The notes below the pieces were generated by a model that did not search any database, had not been told where the DNA came from, and saw only the letters and a program-made list of their open reading frames with translations. DNA of 64,000 nucleotides. It comes from Stieleria bergensis. Lineage in GTDB: Bacteria > Planctomycetota > Planctomycetia > Pirellulales > Pirellulaceae. The position numbers and the translations under genes are program-made. Below, in pieces: positions 56,769 to 64,000 of this stretch. Each line of letters starts with the position of its first letter. Position 1 is the first letter of the stretch. The DNA is taken from positions 4,740,459 to 4,804,458 of the forward strand of contig CP036272.1 in NCBI GenBank assembly GCA_007745635.1, in the 5' to 3' direction.

Positions 56769-58277
56769 TTAACTCCAAGGACCGGTCAACGCTGAGACTG
56801 GCTGGGCGATCGACTGAAAACGCAACACGCGGACGGCATTGCGATTCACGAAGCTAACAAGTGGCATGATGCCATGCGATAGAATCTCGGTCGCCAACGC
56901 CTCAGGCAGATAGACCTCGGCACACGGCTTGAGCTGTGATTCCTGATCCTCATCGGTGTAGCTCAGGCTGGGCAGATCATCCAGTTGAAGACGATCACCG
57001 GGATCCATTGCCAGACCTGACTGGACAAAGCTTTGTCCCAGCAAGATCCCGGCCGCGATCGCGGGGCTTCCCCACAGCAACTGATCGTGCTGTGCAACTG
57101 GATCATCGATTTCTTCGAAACGAATCGCATCGGTCTCCTCGCCATACTTACCGTAGGGCAGACGCATAAGGGGACGCGGACCGACCAATCCCAACGAATC
57201 AGCGATCGCACTGCCGCGCAGGTCACTCCAAGCACTGGACGCCTCTGCGGTCAGCGTTCCTGCATTCAATTCAGGCCAAGCATCGACACCTAGCAACTGC
57301 GGGCTCGCGCCGGCAATCGCACAAGCACCACAGGCTTTGGCGACGGCCGTCAATCGGCTTAACTGATCAATCTGTTGATCACTGGCTGCAAACGCATCAG
57401 CATGCAACACCACGGCGTATGGAGACTGCTGGGGCGCCACAACCAGTCGCTGATAGAGCGGACTGGATTGCAAGTCCGATCCTGCGGGACCGACCAACTG
57501 GCCTAATTCGGCCTTCTTGGCGTCCAAGACAAACAACTGAATCGATTCTTCACCGGTCAGCTCACGAACGATCCAATGCAAGCCACGCCAGTTGGATTCC
57601 AAAGTCTGGAACGCGGGCCAGTGCAACAGGCGACACAACTGCTGGGAGATCGCTTCGTCGGCCCACTGGATGTACTGATCTTGGCGAGGGTCAGCGGCGG
57701 GCTGCACATGCGGGGCAACGATCTGATGAATCAGCTGATCGATGCTCGCGGAGGCTGCGCCGGTGGCTTGCGTTGCGCCGGTCGTCGCCCCAAGCAAACG
57801 CTGCAAAGTCTCTGTATCGTTTTCGTCTGTTGAAGCGCTGTCCGCAGTGGCCTCGCTCGCGGGCGAATCCTGTTCAGAGTCAGCCATTGTCTGCGAGAGC
57901 TGGCGCAATTCAGTCGCGGCACTTTCAAAGGTGCTCACATCACCTAACCGAGAACGCAAGTCGCGCAAACGCTTGAACACATCCAGGTGTTGGTACAGAA
58001 AGTCCGGTTCAAACGACTCCAGTTCCTCGAATGGAATCTCAATCATCTGTGTTGAATCTTCGGTGAACGGGACTTTGACCAAGGGATTCATCTTCCCCAT
58101 CACATCGTCAAAGTTATCGATGTCCACTCGAACGGGTTTCCGTTGATCGATCGGCGACCCCGTCTTATCGCCGGACAAATCAGCAATCAGCAGGATCTTC
58201 AGCGGGGATTCGGGATCGCGACGGGGACGATCAGGGGCTGAACCAAATCCAAAATCAGAACCAACAAGATTTGACAC
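56769..58277 (-). CDS. TssB-TssC fusion, type VI secretion contractile sheath protein
   Basis: 502 residues from a GTG ending at 58277; no upstream ATG in frame before a stop. Residues about 25-112 match TssB: PLKILLIADLSG, then VRVDIDNFDDVMGKMNPLVKV and PFEELESFEPDFLYQHL. After a Ser/Glu/Ala-rich linker (115-180), residues about 185-500 match TssC: HWPAFQTLESNWRGLHWIV, GACAIAGASPQLLG, LPYGKYGEETDAIRFEE in part, LLWGSPAIAAGILLGQSF, and the end LKPCAEVYLPEA ... MPLVSFVNRNAVRVLRFQS (shortened here). In canonical type VI systems TssB and TssC are two proteins that form the contractile sheath; here they are one chain. The baseplate, membrane complex and Hcp are not in the window. Confidence 0.9.
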   Translation of the reverse strand: MSNLVGSDFGFGSAPDRPRRDPESPLKILLIADLSGDKTGSPIDQRKPVRVDIDNFDDVMGKMNPLVKVPFTEDSTQMIEIPFEELESFEPDFLYQHLDVFKRLRDLRSRLGDVSTFESAATELRQLSQTMADSEQDSPASEATADSASTDENDTETLQRLLGATTGATQATGAASASIDQLIHQIVAPHVQPAADPRQDQYIQWADEAISQQLCRLLHWPAFQTLESNWRGLHWIVRELTGEESIQLFVLDAKKAELGQLVGPAGSDLQSSPLYQRLVVAPQQSPYAVVLHADAFAASDQQIDQLSRLTAVAKACGACAIAGASPQLLGVDAWPELNAGTLTAEASSAWSDLRGSAIADSLGLVGPRPLMRLPYGKYGEETDAIRFEEIDDPVAQHDQLLWGSPAIAAGILLGQSFVQSGLAMDPGDRLQLDDLPSLSYTDEDQESQLKPCAEVYLPEALATEILSHGIMPLVSFVNRNAVRVLRFQSIAQPVSALTGPWS

Positions 58278-58331
58278 AATTGACTCAGGGGTACGGATGG
58301 TTTGGGGGGGAACAAGAAAGAGTGCAGTGAA

Positions 58332-58446
58332 TTAAGAAGCTTGCTTCGCATCACGGAAGCCTGCTTTGTAACCTGCTCGGAACGCTTGATTAAGCAACGT
58401 TGCATAGTGGTTGGCGCTACGCGGATCTCGGCACGACATTGGAATG
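58332..58446 (-). pseudogene. 3' fragment of a small gene interrupted by an IS element
   Basis: Minus-strand frame ending in TAA (58332-58334) after ANHYATLLNQAFRAGYKAGF and RDAKQAS. It has the composition of a real gene end, lies 54 nt upstream of the TssB-TssC start in the same frame, and has no start codon of its own before the IS edge. The matching 5' part is probably 59721-59814 on the other side of the IS. The joint cannot be confirmed because no clean target duplication is visible. Confidence 0.5.
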
Positions 58447-58467
58447 CCCCCGAAACTTGGTCCAGGG

Positions 58468-59322
58468 TTATGAAGGTAGGGATTGGGTTACTGAATCACA
58501 TTCGTTGTGCCGCTTCGACGTAAGGAGCGCAGCGACTGGAGTTGAAGCGGCACAACGGGTCGCGAACTCCGCAGGAGTAAGCCCGCTCAGCGAGCTGTGG
58601 GGACGTCGATGGTTGTACGTCGATCTCCATTGCCCGATTACCTGTTGCGCTTCGGCAAGCGTGCTGAACGCTTCGCAGGACAAGCACTCGTCACGAAACC
58701 GGCTGTGGAAGCTCTCGACATAGCCGTTCTCCCAGGGGCTACCTGGTTCAATGAACGATGTGCCGACATCAATGCGTCCAAGGAAATCGCGGACGCGGCG
58801 ACTGATGAACTCTGGTCCGTTGTCACTTCGGATAAATGCCGGAATGCCTCGAATTGCAAACACATCCACTAGAAGGGCAACCAAGTCATCGCCGGTGAAC
58901 CGGCGTGAGACCTCCAAGGCGATGCATTCTCGTGAGTACTCATCGATCAACGAAAGGATCTTCACTGACCGCCCATTGATTGTTCGATCAAAGATAAAGT
59001 CAATCGACCAAACGTGATTGATGCGTTCGGCGCGGCGACGGCAGATCCCTCCTGAAACGCTTCCAAGCCTGCGTTTCTTCGTCTTTCTTCGTGGCACTCG
59101 AAGACCTTCTCGTTTCCAAAGCCGATAGATTCGTTTGTAATTCACTGTCCATCCTTCGCGGCGTAACATCCGCGTGATCATCCGGTAGCCGTAGCGGGGG
59201 AATTCTCGAACCAGTTCGTAAATGCGGCGAAGCAATCGCTCTTCGTCGCTCTTGGATTTCGCTTGGTACCGATGAGTACTCCGCGGTTGGCCAAGCGTTT
59301 TGCATGCCCGACGTTCTGACAC
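58468..59322 (-). CDS. IS3-family transposase OrfB (DDE domain)
   Basis: 284 codons from an internal GTG, but it is most likely made as an OrfAB fusion by a -1 frameshift at about 59376-59378, where the OrfA frame ends (AAC TTC TGA) and the other frame reads LSPTRRREAVAKAQKSF. HTH-21 segment RERRACKTLGQPRSTHRY-type, then the rve core with the three acidic residues: D in HVWSIDFIFD, D in IRSDNGPEFIS, and E in GSPWENGYVESFHSRF. All three are present. The C-terminus is complete. Confidence 0.93.
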   Translation of the reverse strand: MSERRACKTLGQPRSTHRYQAKSKSDEERLLRRIYELVREFPRYGYRMITRMLRREGWTVNYKRIYRLWKREGLRVPRRKTKKRRLGSVSGGICRRRAERINHVWSIDFIFDRTINGRSVKILSLIDEYSRECIALEVSRRFTGDDLVALLVDVFAIRGIPAFIRSDNGPEFISRRVRDFLGRIDVGTSFIEPGSPWENGYVESFHSRFRDECLSCEAFSTLAEAQQVIGQWRSTYNHRRPHSSLSGLTPAEFATRCAASTPVAALLTSKRHNECDSVTQSLPS

Positions 59323-59372
59323 TGCAAAGGATTTCTGAGCCTTTGCAACAGCCTCACGTCGTCGCGTCGGGC

Positions 59373-59657
59373 TCAGAAGTTTCCCTCTGCAGCCATCTTG
59401 AGGATCTTCTTGTCTAGCTCGGCCTCGGCGAGAAGCTCTTTGAGTCGTTGATTCTCGACTTCAAGCTCACGAAGTCGTTTTGCTTCATCCGACTTCATTC
59501 CGCCATACAGTTTCTTCCAACGCTCCCAGGTCGTTACGCTGATTTCAAGCGTTTGAAACACCTCGGCCTCTGTCTTGCCCGCCGCCATCATCGCATCGCC
59601 TTCTTGAATCGCCTTCACGATCTGCTCGGGTTTCCGTCGTTTGCGTTTCTTAGTCAT
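59373..59657 (-). CDS. IS3-family transposase OrfA
   Basis: 94 residues. Helix-turn-helix (HTH_Tnp_1 type) with KPEQIVKAIQEGDAMMAAGK and ISVTTWERWKKLYGGM, followed by a leucine-zipper-like helix LRELEVENQRLKELL, which mediates oligomerisation. Directly upstream of orfB; it stops at TGA 59373-59375 within the presumed frameshift site. Confidence 0.93.
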   Translation of the reverse strand: MTKKRKRRKPEQIVKAIQEGDAMMAAGKTEAEVFQTLEISVTTWERWKKLYGGMKSDEAKRLRELEVENQRLKELLAEAELDKKILKMAAEGNF

Positions 59658-59720
59658 AAAAAGTCTCCTTTGGCCAGCTCGGCCGGTAAACCTTCATAAC
59701 AGATGGATTAGTTTTTGGGG

Positions 59721-59814
59721 AGCACGCCAACATGACCACCCGATCACTGGCTGAGACGACATCGTATTGCTGTTCCTTCGCAACCACACGATACGTTTCT
59801 TGGTCATCATTCAT
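59721..59814 (-). pseudogene. 5' fragment of a small gene interrupted by an IS element
   Basis: From ATG at 59814: MNDDQETYRVVAKEQQYDVV and SASDRVVMLAC, then the IS edge. It has no stop codon before the IS, into which the frame runs. Together with 58332-58446 it would make a protein of about 70 residues upstream of the TssB-TssC gene on the same strand. Loss of this gene, or loss of its coupling to the sheath gene, is the expected effect of the insertion. Confidence 0.5.
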
Positions 59815-60050
59815 CAGTGCACTCCACTTGCAATGTAAGTTGCCACGCAATGGGCATCCAACCGAGCTTGATTTTACAGATTCGTAACGTCTATACGGGC
59901 AGGTAGCGTGAATTAATCTGCTTGAACCGCCCTAAAAGACAAGGCACGCGGCGCATGGACGGGTTTTGCGGTATATTTGCTTAGACCGCAGCGGTGAATT
60001 CGCGTGAGGCCGTTTGGCCATTTGATCCGCCATCACAGAAGAGACCTTCG

Positions 60051-61106
60051 ATGCCATGCTTTTGCCAGCCCCAGGCAGCCCAAATGCTTGCCGCACTTCC
60101 GGCGTTGCCTGCCATGGAGATCCCAGCGTTGCCCGCTGGTGCAGGTTCAGCTGCCGCTGCCGCTTCGATGGCAGCGGCGATGAGCGCAGCATTATCGATG
60201 GCTGCTAGCCTGGAAGCCATGCTCGGATTGCCGATTCCAGCTTTGTCTGCCGAAGGGGTTGCAGCTTTAGAAGCCATGGCCAGTGTGGAAGGCGAACTCG
60301 GCATTGGCATGACCGCCCCTTCAGCACAGGCAGAACTCTCACTCGCCGCTGGCTCGTTAAACCTGGCGGCTCCAACCTTAGGAGAACTAGGCGCAGCTCT
60401 GGGGCCTGCCGCCGAACCGATGGGTGCCCTGCCCGAAATGCTGGCATTGAGCGCAGCCATCGAAGCCAGCTTAGGAATCAACATGGCCTTGCCAGGCGCG
60501 GCGGCCAGTTTTGAAGCCGCGATGGACGCAGCCATGGAAGCCGCCGTCGCCTTAGAAGCCAGTCCAGCCGCCGGTGTTTCTGCAGAGCTTGCAATGGGAT
60601 TGCCGCTCGCCGCCCGCGCGTTGAACGCTGCACTTGCCTTGGGTTTACCGCTGGGTGATCCGCCGGCGATGGCTGCGGAACTCGCGGCGACGGCTGAACT
60701 TACAATGCCCCCGTTAGACATGACGCCTGCTGAAATGGGACAGGTCAGTGCAGGTATGGTTGACTTGGGGCTGGTTGCTCCAGTTGCCGGTGGCATGCCC
60801 TCGCTCCCAGCGATCCCGGCCATGGAAGCCACCGCTGCCGAGCTCGCCGCGAACCTGGAGGCCGCCGCCGAGATCGCCGCCAGCATGGACCTAAGCGTCA
60901 GTCCCAGCATGAGCCTGGCCGCGGGAATGCCCGCAATCGAAGCGGCGCCCATGGAGTTCGCATTGGCCATGGCGGCACCGGAACTCGGTGGCTTGCCAAG
61001 TATGGGCGACATGCAAGTGGCCGCTGCGATGGCGGCTAGCTTTGAAGGCAGCGCTCCCTCGTTGCTTTCCAGCGTCCCTTGCCCCAATATTTTTTGCTCG
61101 GCCTAA
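60051..61106 (+). CDS. Ala/Met-rich protein without Lys, His, Trp or Tyr
   Basis: 351 residues from the ATG at 60051, preceded by an AGAAGAG that may serve as ribosome-binding site. A GTG at 59994 is the alternative. The chain is about one third Ala with much Met, Leu, Pro, Gly, Glu and Ser, a single Arg and no Lys, His, Trp or Tyr; it is therefore strongly acidic. Cysteines appear only at the ends: CFC at residues 3-5 and CPNIFC near the C-terminus. Most of it is predicted amphipathic helix (repeating AEL/AAM units). The opposite strand is also open, so the strand choice rests on direction: it stops 43 bp before the parvulin gene, with the PAAR gene beyond. Function unknown. Confidence 0.65.
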   Translation: MPCFCQPQAAQMLAALPALPAMEIPALPAGAGSAAAAASMAAAMSAALSMAASLEAMLGLPIPALSAEGVAALEAMASVEGELGIGMTAPSAQAELSLAAGSLNLAAPTLGELGAALGPAAEPMGALPEMLALSAAIEASLGINMALPGAAASFEAAMDAAMEAAVALEASPAAGVSAELAMGLPLAARALNAALALGLPLGDPPAMAAELAATAELTMPPLDMTPAEMGQVSAGMVDLGLVAPVAGGMPSLPAIPAMEATAAELAANLEAAAEIAASMDLSVSPSMSLAAGMPAIEAAPMEFALAMAAPELGGLPSMGDMQVAAAMAASFEGSAPSLLSSVPCPNIFCSA

Positions 61107-61149
61107 CAGTCACTTCAGCCCGTTCGTTGTTCCACCGAGTCGTTATTCC

Positions 61150-61434
61150 ATGTTGCGAATCCGAGCCAGACACATTCAGCTGTCCAGTCCTGACGTTGCC
61201 AACCAGGTCATGCAGCTTTGGCAGGCCGGTGAGAACTTTGCTGACCTTGCCAAACGTTATTCAGAATGCTCAACCGCTGTCCAGGGAGGCAGCTTGGGGC
61301 ACTTCGGTCCCGGACAAATGAGCCCCGAGATCGATGCGGTTTGCATGCGTGGAGAACCGGGCGGTGTGTATGGTCCCATCCAAACGGCCCATGGCATTCA
61401 TCTGGTAGAAGTCATCGAACGAGCAGAAGTTTGA
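61150..61434 (+). CDS. Stand-alone parvulin-type peptidyl-prolyl isomerase
   Basis: 94 residues from the ATG at 61150. A complete parvulin (PpiC/rotamase) domain: RARHIQLSSPDVA at the start with the first His, ENFADLAKRYSECST, GGSLGHFGPGQMSPEID and YGPIQTAHGIHLVEVIERAE with the second conserved His. No signal peptide, so it acts in the cytosol. It lies between the Lys-free protein and the PAAR gene, on the same strand, which suggests it helps fold or load a protein of this locus; Pro-rich sequence in both neighbours would suit an isomerase. Confidence 0.9.
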   Translation: MLRIRARHIQLSSPDVANQVMQLWQAGENFADLAKRYSECSTAVQGGSLGHFGPGQMSPEIDAVCMRGEPGGVYGPIQTAHGIHLVEVIERAEV

Positions 61435-61588
61435 CCGATTCTGTTCATCTGGCTCTGCTGGATGACGAAGACTAAACGAATCACCGAAAGACAACATCAC
61501 ATTGAATCCATCACGGATTCGCACTCACTTACGATCGCCTCTGCGGCGAGTTCATCCGACACACCTTCATTTCCTTGAGGCCCCTGCC

Positions 61589-61972
61589 ATGCCATCCGCT
61601 GCGACACTTGGCGATTCAATCAAACAGGATGCACCTCATTGCCATGCACCGATCCACCCGGCTGCCCCCACACCGACGCCGGTTGCTCATCCAGCCTTGC
61701 CATTAACGATCATCAAGGGTGCACCAACGGTGATGATATCAAACAAACCGGCCGCCCGAGTCAGTGACCAATCAACACCGTGCATGTTGCCCAGCTGTGT
61801 CCCCGCTGGACCTGGGATCATCAGCAAAGGCTCTGCCACAGTGATGATCGGCGGCATGCCTGCAGCACGGGTCAACGACATGACCGCTCATGCCAGCTGT
61901 GTTGCGCCGATTCCCAGCCCCGTTGGCAAGGTGATTGGTCCAGGGGTGGCGACGGTACAGATCGGAGGCTGA
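61589..61972 (+). CDS. PAAR-domain protein (type VI secretion spike tip)
   Basis: 127 residues from the ATG at 61589. The PAAR signature repeats three times: IKGAPTVMISNKPAARVSD, KGSATVMIGGMPAARVND and a last VIGPGVATVQIGG. His and Cys residues (HCHAP, CMLPSC, AHASC) are placed to bind the zinc that sharpens the tip. The Pro/Ala-rich insert (about 15-35) is like that in PAAR proteins of the DUF4150 group. PAAR caps VgrG and carries effectors; there is no C-terminal toxin domain here, so any cargo would be a separate protein. The stop overlaps the start region of the methyltransferase by 9 nt spacing. Confidence 0.93.
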   Translation: MPSAATLGDSIKQDAPHCHAPIHPAAPTPTPVAHPALPLTIIKGAPTVMISNKPAARVSDQSTPCMLPSCVPAGPGIISKGSATVMIGGMPAARVNDMTAHASCVAPIPSPVGKVIGPGVATVQIGG

Positions 61973-61980
61973 TTGTCAGA

Positions 61981-63129
61981 GTGAAACTATCGCATTTCCA
62001 GACGTTCGCCCCTGTCTGCCCGGTGTGTCGAACGCAACGAGGCAGCGACAACGCATTGGTCATCGCTAATGTCTTTGACGGGGACGATCAAGTCATCCAA
62101 CACGGGATGCTGCATTGCAGCGAAGCCAGTTGCCAGCACGAGTATCCAATCATCGACGGGATCCCCATCATCGTCGAGTCGCTTCGCACCTACCTGCCTC
62201 AACAGCTTGCCGATTTACTGTATCGAACGGATTTGCCAGCTGACACGCTCAGTTTGATTGGCGATTGCTGCGGCCCGGGCAGTGAGTTCGACGCCAAACG
62301 CCAGCAATTGAGCACCTATTGCTGGGACCATTACGGTGACCTGTTGCCGGTCGACCTGAGAGAACCGCCACACAGCGCGTTCGTTTCCCAAACCGACCAG
62401 GAGTGCTCTGGAAGCATGACACGCGTGCTTCATGCAGCACTCGATCGCTGCTCTGAAACCATAGCGTCTGGCGCTGATTTAGGCCCAGGACCGTTGCTAG
62501 ATGTGGGCTGCTCCGTTGGCCGAGCCGCCTTCGAACTGGCCGCGAGGTATCAACAACCGGTGCTTGGCATCGACATCAACCTGGGCATGTTGCGAATCGC
62601 GGCAAAGATCCTCCGCGATGGCTTGGTTCGCTATGATCGCCGGCGGGTTGGCATGGTCTATGATCGCATCGAACATGAACTGAAATTCTCTGCGGCGGAG
62701 TTCGTGGACTTTTGGGCCTGTGATGCTCAAGCGTTGCCGTTTGCGGAAAACAGCGTCGCTGGCATTTGCGGAATGAACATCTTGGACAGCATTCATTCAC
62801 CGACACAACTGCTTTTCGAAATCAGCCGAGTTCTGCAGCCTAACTCCTCCGTCGTACTGAGCTGCCCTTACGACTGGACACCGTCTGCTACCACCGTCGA
62901 GCAGTGGATCGGTGGCCATTCACAACGCAGCGTCGATGGCGGTGCCGCGGAACCGATGCTGAGACGTCTGCTTTCTGGGACAGAACCAAGCATTCCTCTA
63001 AAGCTGATTGATGAACAAAATCTGCCCTGGCACCTGCGACTGCATTCACGCAGTCGTGTGACCTATGATTGCCACGTCACGCTCTCACAGAAACTCGCTG
63101 AGCGCCAGCCCGCCCCCACAGTACAATAA
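61981..63129 (+). CDS. Zinc-ribbon (Trm112-like) SAM-dependent methyltransferase
   Basis: 382 residues from the GTG at 61981, 8 nt after the PAAR stop; the frame is open upstream but inside the PAAR gene. N-terminal Trm112-like zinc ribbon (C13-x2-C16, C46-x4-C51, then YPIIDGIPIIV), a helical linker (70-170), and a class I methyltransferase domain with motif I LLDVGCSVGRAAFEL (about 172-186), GIDINLGML, WACDAQALPFAENSVAGI and an ISRVLQPNSSVVLSCPYDW segment. Methyltransferases with this layout occur next to PAAR-type genes in several planctomycetes, but no target is known. It could modify a secreted component. Confidence 0.87.
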   Translation: MKLSHFQTFAPVCPVCRTQRGSDNALVIANVFDGDDQVIQHGMLHCSEASCQHEYPIIDGIPIIVESLRTYLPQQLADLLYRTDLPADTLSLIGDCCGPGSEFDAKRQQLSTYCWDHYGDLLPVDLREPPHSAFVSQTDQECSGSMTRVLHAALDRCSETIASGADLGPGPLLDVGCSVGRAAFELAARYQQPVLGIDINLGMLRIAAKILRDGLVRYDRRRVGMVYDRIEHELKFSAAEFVDFWACDAQALPFAENSVAGICGMNILDSIHSPTQLLFEISRVLQPNSSVVLSCPYDWTPSATTVEQWIGGHSQRSVDGGAAEPMLRRLLSGTEPSIPLKLIDEQNLPWHLRLHSRSRVTYDCHVTLSQKLAERQPAPTVQ

Positions 63130-63151: not shown

Positions 63152-64000
63152 TCAGTTGCTCGCAGGCAATAACCCGCCAACACTTGGTACAGGCACTCGA
63201 ATGCCCGTCCCGGAGAGTCGTCGCGTGCCCTTGATCTGATAGGCTTTGTTGGTCAGTTCAACGCTTGAGGCGACTTTGCCCGTCGGTGAATCAAAGTAGA
63301 ACGTATGCGTTGCCAGCCCCTTTTGCTGGTCATAGCGACGATCAACGCGAACCGGCTGGACGGATTCATCACTGTCAACATCAACCTTGAATTCGTTGAC
63401 GTTTACGTCATCACGACCAAACACCTTCAACACAAACCGCTGACGATGAAGCAACTTGCCATCTTCGGTCTCCAAGGGCTCGTTGGCTGTTTTGTCTTGC
63501 CACAGCTGAATGCCTTCGCTGACGGTGACCGGTTTTGCCAGTTGTTCATCAACGGAATAACGCCATGATTCCGGAGCGGACTCAGGATCAACCGGCGGCG
63601 GCAATGGCTCGTCTTGTGGCGCCGAATTCGGGGGCAGCAGAGAAAACACATCGCCAAATGGTTCGGCCATGGACCACACTTTGACCTCTGCAGCGCTGCC
63701 TTGCTCTGGCCAAGCGGGTGCATGCAGATGCAGCAACGGCACGGGCTGCTGTGCGACAAATGCGCTGTCAACGTAGGTGTAAGGCTGTCCCACGGGACGC
63801 TCGTTATTATCCAATGGCTGGACTTCGATCCAAACACGTTTCGGCCGAAACGTAAACCGGAATTGCTGGGCCTTGGCATCTCGCTCGGTGCGTTCAACGG
63901 CATCGGCTTGTTGCCAAGAAATCGGCACCAAGACGTCTCCGGCGGCGTCACGCTGAGCCTGATGGATTCGAGTCAAGACAGTGGTTCGATTGCCATCCAG
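63152..64000 (-). CDS. Protein of unknown function, 5' part outside the window
   Basis: At least 282 residues, open to the window end on the upstream side, so the N-terminus is missing. Beta-rich with segments FRFTFRPKRVWIEVQPLD, EVKVWSMAEPFGDVFSLLPP and FVLKVFGRDDVNVNEFKV, a Pro/Asp-rich linker (DEPLPPPVDPESAPE), and an ending GTRRLSGTGIRVPVPSVGG. No signal for a family. It converges on the methyltransferase with 22 bp between stops. It may belong to the same contractile locus, but that rests on position only. Confidence 0.75.
   Translation of the reverse strand: MDGNRTTVLTRIHQAQRDAAGDVLVPISWQQADAVERTERDAKAQQFRFTFRPKRVWIEVQPLDNNERPVGQPYTYVDSAFVAQQPVPLLHLHAPAWPEQGSAAEVKVWSMAEPFGDVFSLLPPNSAPQDEPLPPPVDPESAPESWRYSVDEQLAKPVTVSEGIQLWQDKTANEPLETEDGKLLHRQRFVLKVFGRDDVNVNEFKVDVDSDESVQPVRVDRRYDQQKGLATHTFYFDSPTGKVASSVELTNKAYQIKGTRRLSGTGIRVPVPSVGGLLPASN

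Follow-up and report, generated by a model that had tools for sequence, protein, structure and literature searches.

A TssB-TssC fusion without the sheath handshake domain, a probable accessory protein of type VI secretion

We analysed a 64,000-nt stretch of the Stieleria bergensis genome (contig CP036272.1, positions 4,740,459 to 4,804,458 of the forward strand; hereafter the window), in which a single open reading frame (ORF) encodes a 502-residue chain with the signatures of both sheath proteins of the type VI secretion system (T6SS), TssB and TssC, fused back to back and devoid of the parts that form the handshake between sheath subunits. Relatives of this fusion are found in several phyla, and the family is probably a widespread, overlooked T6SS helper, not a sheath. 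It appears to be undescribed, in that no description of the family was found among the open-licence PMC papers searched. Relatives carry the RefSeq label "contractile sheath large subunit", and the family is thereby hidden among TssC proteins. The features of the locus are collected in Table 1.

Table 1. Features of the fusion locus; coordinates are positions in the window
Feature	Coordinates	Strand	Basis or remark
TssB-TssC(N) fusion of 502 aa; pseudo-protomer of the sheath, without handshake parts	56769-58277	-	single ORF; Pfam, model, VIA
TssB/VipA-like part, residues 22-135, without N-terminal beta strand	57873-58214	-	PF05591, alignment, HMM
Disordered linker, residues 136-176	57750-57872	-	pLDDT < 50 in model
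Short linker helix, residues 155-161, motif TLQRLLG, resembles TssC N-terminal ClpV-docking helix	57795-57815	-	model (low-confidence region)
TssC/VipB N-terminal domain, residues 200-484, without gp25-like C-terminal domain	56826-57680	-	PF05943
IS3-type insertion sequence, ~1290 bp	58440-59729	-	ORFs 58468-59322 and 59373-59657; larger ORF matches Pfam rve and HTH_21
Ala/Leu/Pro/Ser/Met-rich protein, 370 aa, 1 Lys	59994-61106	+	50% identity in G496
Stand-alone parvulin, 94 aa, ATG at 61150	61150-61434	+	PF00639, E 2.1e-16; 58% identity in G496
PAAR spike-tip protein	61502-61972	+	PF05488; 72% identity in G496
Methyltransferase, Cys-rich N-terminus, GTG at 61981	61981-63129	+	PF08241, 1.1e-11; weak Trm112p below cut-off
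C-terminal part of 1702-aa protein running past the window	63152-64000	-	VWA match below cut-off; relative matches caspase-like model

A sheath core without its inner layer

An earlier note on this DNA had seen TssB and TssC signatures in one chain, joined by a disordered linker, and both observations hold. The VipA family PF05591 matches with an E-value of 5e-16 and 59.3 bits (Pfam cut-off 24), and the VipB family PF05943 with an E-value of 1.5e-44 over profile positions 1-294 of 301; each of the two was also found in 15/15 planctomycete fusion members (Pfam, E <= 0.01, as for PF18945 below). The NCBIfam cut-offs are not reached (TIGR03355, 136.5 vs 271.5 bits; TIGR03358, 59.2 vs 97.25 bits). 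The predicted structure has a predicted local distance difference test score (pLDDT) of 81.5, falling below 50 in the linker, and a predicted template modelling score (pTM) of 0.80. In the structure comparison with VIA, the closest folds were T6SS TssC chains: model residues 195-502 align with positions 61-395 of VipB (3j9g_2), and the two halves taken together (24-502) align with the single-chain pyocin sheath 3j9q over residues 23-290 of its 385. The pyocin and Photorhabdus virulence cassette (PVC) sheath chains are spanned by the model only up to 290/385 (3j9q) and 290/383 (9qgl_4A); unlike the fusion, such single-chain phage and pyocin sheath proteins have a C-terminal part of their own beyond the aligned range. 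A phage-tail identity, which the note had named as a possible refutation, was dismissed, since the best folds are TssC chains and no PHROG match was found at E <= 0.01. Phage-collection matches to the fusion amount to three records, each with less than 60% query coverage.

The missing parts are those of the handshake. In the Pseudomonas aeruginosa sheath, as described in a published account (PMC5807055), the handshake sheet consists of strands b11 and b12 of TssC, b13 of a neighbour's TssC and b1 of TssB. The gp25-like TssC domain PF18945, which in our own reading should correspond to strands b11-b13, was not found in the window fusion, nor in any of the planctomycete members (0/15). On the TssB side, the PF05591 match begins at profile position 24, and by alignment the N-terminal strand is missing. 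A hidden Markov model (HMM) that we built for the TssC C-terminal domain matches 37/37 canonical TssC proteins and 2/68 fusion ORFs, a set in which three genes are represented twice; the two (L140_4 and G221_3) are both full fusions, and the other 66/68 lack the domain. Our HMM for the TssB N-terminal strand matches 23/23 canonical TssB proteins and 1/68 fusion ORFs, although this short model failed to match the full fusion G221_3 too.

Since the alignment of the model stops before the C-terminal part of the pyocin and PVC sheath chains, the fusion has retained the middle and outer layers of a sheath subunit and lost the inner one. As modelled, it keeps domains 2 and 3 without domain 1, the inner handshake layer. 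The known mode of incorporation into the sheath lattice is therefore closed to it, and it is no replacement for TssB or TssC. The note had proposed looking for a sheath handshake between the two halves; the comparison instead returned a core fold that matches VipB with the handshake layer missing.

A displaced part of an ordinary T6SS

The host genome, a single contig of 7.1 Mb, has a T6SS elsewhere. A separate tssB, together with a tssC carrying both VipB and VipB_2 domains, lies 546 kb from the window locus in a cluster that also holds TssA, Hcp, TagJ, TssE, TssF, TssG and ClpV (TIGR03345, 1270 bits), with TssK, TssL and an IcmF-N protein on the opposite strand. The core set found genome-wide comprises TssA, B, C, E, F, G, K, L, M, Hcp, ClpV, VgrG and PAAR, TssM being represented solely by an IcmF-N-matching protein of 762 aa. 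VgrG has a single match, located at 4.48 Mb and thus ~314 kb away from the fusion; the PAAR gene of the window is the sole PF05488 match of the genome. The T6SS core genes are not contiguous with the window locus here. As the note had stated, Hcp, VgrG and the membrane parts are not in the window: none was among the ORFs examined at 50-64 kb, and the genome's matches to VgrG and to stand-alone TssB and TssC are all elsewhere.

The arrangement is different in a second genome of the same genus, G496, whose fusion is 42% identical to the window protein (214/515). There, HMMs that we built place TssK/L, TssA-G with Hcp and TagJ, ClpV, the fusion, the Ala-rich protein, the parvulin, PAAR and the methyltransferase on one contig, followed further on by a methyltransferase-regulatory protein and two giant proteins with a putative lipoprotein; the fusion ends 0.5 kb from clpV. 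Because the window block is contiguous with the T6SS beside clpV in G496, the window locus is best described as a displaced part of an ordinary T6SS. The note's divergent locus, perhaps continuing past the window, is therefore T6SS-linked but not a stand-alone system, which we dismissed in view of the cluster elsewhere in the genome and the contiguous arrangement in G496; it is a split-off part.

Distribution and phylogeny

Relatives of the fusion were found in Planctomycetota, Pseudomonadota, Acidobacteriota, Thermodesulfobacteriota and Gemmatimonadota. In the phylum sample, 83/392 genomes match the query, and a fusion was read in at least 15 of them, a lower bound because weaker whole-length matches (e.g., G169 and G215) stand outside the count. 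A TssC with the C-terminal domain is present in each of these genomes (15/15), two of which (G072 and G368) were missed by the ORF filter behind the 68-ORF set. The planctomycete members are 27-37% identical to the window protein, with 14 invariant columns across 15 members. The family sample of 119 genomes gave 50 matching genomes; a full-length fusion is present in 21, and a partial one in a further two, G430 and G440. All 21 genomes with a full-length fusion have a TssC-like match elsewhere, in G400 as contig-end fragments only. The remaining 69/119 have neither a fusion nor a TssC-like match at E 1e-5. A scan of named genomes gave 74 loci, 54 of them with a single-ORF fusion under the filter (the full fusion L140 included), and these loci include tube-worm endosymbionts, Thiodiazotropha, Massilia, Motiliproteus, Paraglaciecola, Desulfosarcina, Pyrinomonadaceae and Gemmatimonadetes. 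Metagenome-assembled genomes labelled Deltaproteobacteria fall in Myxococcota under the taxonomy used for the tree.

In a tree built by a quick method, with long branches flagged (L136_10 among them), 62 fusions form one side of a branch with a Shimodaira-Hasegawa-like approximate likelihood ratio (SH-aLRT) support of 100, against 33 canonical TssC proteins and 2 full fusions. Judged by sequence, the handshake-less fusions are one clade of single ancestry, apart from canonical TssC.

T6SS genes were recognised in the examined flanks of 30/54 loci (Hcp 20, VgrG 19, TssC 18, ClpV 10), with some contigs short and the HMMs built from few planctomycete proteins. Ruegeria conchae M340 and Leisingera M658 carry the fusion on plasmids, inside T6SS clusters, where it is annotated "sheath large subunit", a name that other Leisingera records bear as well. 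The vgrG gene directly follows the fusion in Ruegeria, Leisingera and L101; in L101 it is followed in turn by DUF2169, pentapeptide, DUF3540 and PAAR-like genes.

Linker helix, tails and arrays

The N-terminal helix of TssC recruits ClpV, according to PMC5048182. The fusion linker corresponds to this TssC N-terminus in position, and its short predicted helix at TLQRLLG can be set beside EFSSLLQKEF in the genome's own TssC. The linker and the TssC of the same genome share a motif class in 21/21 classifiable pairs of 29. We infer that the linker helix presents a ClpV-docking motif, and docking of ClpV by the fusion is probable.

Some members carry acidic tails ending in DPELAALLADL or similar, and the Ruegeria and Leisingera proteins have 548 and 621 extra N-terminal residues, respectively. 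The non-core parts contain 11 motif-like matches in Ruegeria (shuffle mean 2.4, max 8) and 16 in Leisingera (mean 2.8, max 7), and the tail or array counts exceed all shuffles in 4/6 proteins tested, G274 and G291 among these. Under a stricter pattern, 11/17 proteins with more than 40 extra residues exceed all 200 shuffles, two genes being counted twice in the set of 17. Near the starts of the Ruegeria and Leisingera TssC proteins are SSEFEALLTKEF and SAEFASLLQKEF, respectively. Among the locus ORFs examined, DPELAALL was found in fusions only; a looser pattern matched three non-fusion ORFs.

Proposed role and alternatives

What the data show directly is the domain content, the predicted fold, descent within one clade, the presence of a separate TssC in fusion genomes and frequent membership of T6SS clusters. 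The role that we favour, at about even chances, is that of an accessory T6SS pseudo-protomer acting as a ClpV adaptor, either for docking or as a decoy. TssB and TssC fused back to back would supply the middle and outer sheath layers only, and the linker, as the equivalent of the TssC N-terminus, would offer a ClpV-docking helix. Some relatives may multiply similar acidic amphipathic motifs in their tails or in an N-terminal array of more than 500 residues. By docking or diverting ClpV, the fusion could tune when and where sheaths are dismantled. A more specific version, which we put forward only tentatively, is a previously undescribed, cross-phylum T6SS subunit in which the handshake-stripped protomer acts as a multivalent ClpV platform, sequestering or delivering ClpV and so setting the lifetime and recycling of extended sheaths; in roseobacters this subunit would bear TssC-like docking motifs repeated over hundreds of residues.

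Several observations weigh against a ClpV adaptor. The same-genus genome G472 gave no full-length match to the fusion, yet ClpV, TssBC, PAAR, the methyltransferase and the giant proteins are all present in it, so that the fusion is dispensable there. No T6SS gene was recognised near 24/54 loci; VgrG is found near the fusion more often than ClpV is (19 vs 10 of 54 loci); and L098 lies, by eye, among housekeeping-like genes (mnmE, mnmG, parAB). The window fusion has one motif copy and no tail. In the shuffling comparisons, L183 and L116 tie the shuffle maximum without exceeding it (2/6 proteins), and 6/17 extended proteins score zero under the stricter pattern. The two motif classes in which linker and TssC agree, LL[DE] and FxxLL-like, were defined after the linkers had been read, and 8/29 pairs are unclassifiable. 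On the tree this concordance is one change (1 independent pair among 19 rows) and may thus reflect co-inheritance with the T6SS group; motif co-variation was not upheld as proof of coevolution with ClpV. In G291 the linker match lies downstream of the aligned place, and the tail motif and TssC look to be of different types.

With the sheath core fold retained, the fusion might instead be a structural end-piece, an adaptor or cap that docks through domain 2/3 contacts on either the baseplate-proximal or the distal sheath end, where polymerisation would stop because a copy without acceptor and donor strands is not extendable. We consider this possible but unlikely: without any handshake strand, its hold on the sheath end is hard to explain, and 27/50 matching family genomes have no fusion, full-length or partial, and would need other caps. 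An assembly factor working with VgrG/PAAR (and Tvp-type adaptors) in spike loading or in licensing the start of the sheath is likewise unlikely. It would account for VgrG in the flanks of 19/54 loci, for vgrG next to the fusion in Ruegeria, Leisingera and L101 and for the position beside the genome's sole PAAR match. However, vgrG islands move as modules, 24/54 loci have no recognised T6SS gene, and the genome's one VgrG match is far from the fusion (~314 kb).

The single-chain sheath of the earlier note, replacing TssB and TssC at a fixed 1:1 stoichiometry, started from the two signatures on one chain, and full-length TssB-TssC fusions with the C-terminal domain do exist elsewhere (L060:2834-4783, L140_4). 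It is contradicted here by the missing handshake domain and strand and by the separate tssB and tssC of the same genome, as well as by the separate TssC in 15/15 and 21/21 fusion genomes, and we hold it to be very improbable. Equally hard to credit is a non-functional degenerate paralogue. Sequence divergence (27-37% identity to the window protein), dispensability in G472 and the insertion sequence ~160 bp upstream would fit decay, but decay sits badly with 14 invariant columns in 15 members, with open frames across several phyla in one clade and with recurrent placement within T6SS clusters.

Among known proteins, TssB/VipA (PF05591, TIGR03358) is alike over fusion residues 22-135, above the Pfam cut-off, whereas the fusion differs in being joined to a second half, in lacking the N-terminal strand and in falling under the TIGR03358 cut-off. 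From TssC/VipB (PF05943 plus PF18945, TIGR03355) it differs by the absent gp25-like domain, a score under the TIGR03355 cut-off and its separate clade. TagJ/HsiE1 (ImpE) is, according to PMC5048182, an accessory factor tied to the sheath and ClpV, as we propose for the fusion, but belongs to a separate family, PF07024; the genome has TagJ as well, so the fusion is no replacement for it. The full-length fusions of G221 and L140 have both halves on one chain, like the window protein, but keep the C-terminal domain (by Pfam in G221, by our HMM in L140) and group with canonical TssC. It is these, and not the window protein, that are candidates for a single-chain sheath. They measure 649 aa (L060:2834-4783, in G221, a 72%-complete assembly) and 807 aa spanning unknown residues (L140:2391-4814); G221 has a second PF18945 match on another contig.

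Should the fusion prove to be an accessory factor, then a T6SS component is missing from the known inventory of several phyla, and tallies of TssC based on names would overcount sheaths. A natural handshake-less protomer would also be a direct tool for studying the roles of the outer layers alone, such as ClpV recruitment.

Neighbouring genes

The IS3-type element occupies the divergent promoter region of the fusion and the PAAR operon, ~160 bp upstream of the former gene. A 4-bp duplication, ACAT, flanks the element (58436-58439 and 59730-59733; ends read by eye), and no terminal inverted repeat of the element was listed in the repeat search.

The PAAR gene and stand-alone parvulin reported in the earlier note were confirmed by Pfam and are conserved in G496. 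The protein it called Lys-free has 1 Lys in 370 aa; it has no Pfam or NCBIfam family at E <= 0.01 and is a real gene, given its 50% identity to the G496 protein. The two share a C-terminal PCPNIFC and lie two genes from PAAR in both genomes. Given this closeness to PAAR, it is possibly a spike-associated protein, perhaps spike-linked cargo. Of the note's zinc-ribbon methyltransferase, the methyltransferase with a Cys-rich start stands and is conserved, with 47% and 43% identity to PAAR-adjacent proteins in G496 and G472; the Trm112p match is weak and below the cut-off.

The 1702-aa protein that runs past the window belongs to a module (L062:1611-13774) with a 1780-aa protein (caspase-like NF047832, below the cut-off) and a 422-aa putative lipoprotein. 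The module might be a planctomycete-specific envelope part, an idea suggested by the genome's TssM-like protein being only 762 aa. Relatives of the 1702-aa protein occur in 40/119 family genomes, of which 38/40 match the fusion query too (a match being TssC or a fusion), and this ties the module to T6SS in the family. Fisher values for the association score T6SS presence by a match to that same query; they are therefore not independent of the fusion, and we give them no weight. Finally, short proteins with a Cys-rich start (L101:5586-6377, L085:8919-9842 and L180:12155-13081), for which there was no Pfam match at E <= 0.05, occur in two Deltaproteobacteria-type loci, close to the fusion or to VgrG, and beside them near the VgrG of this genome.

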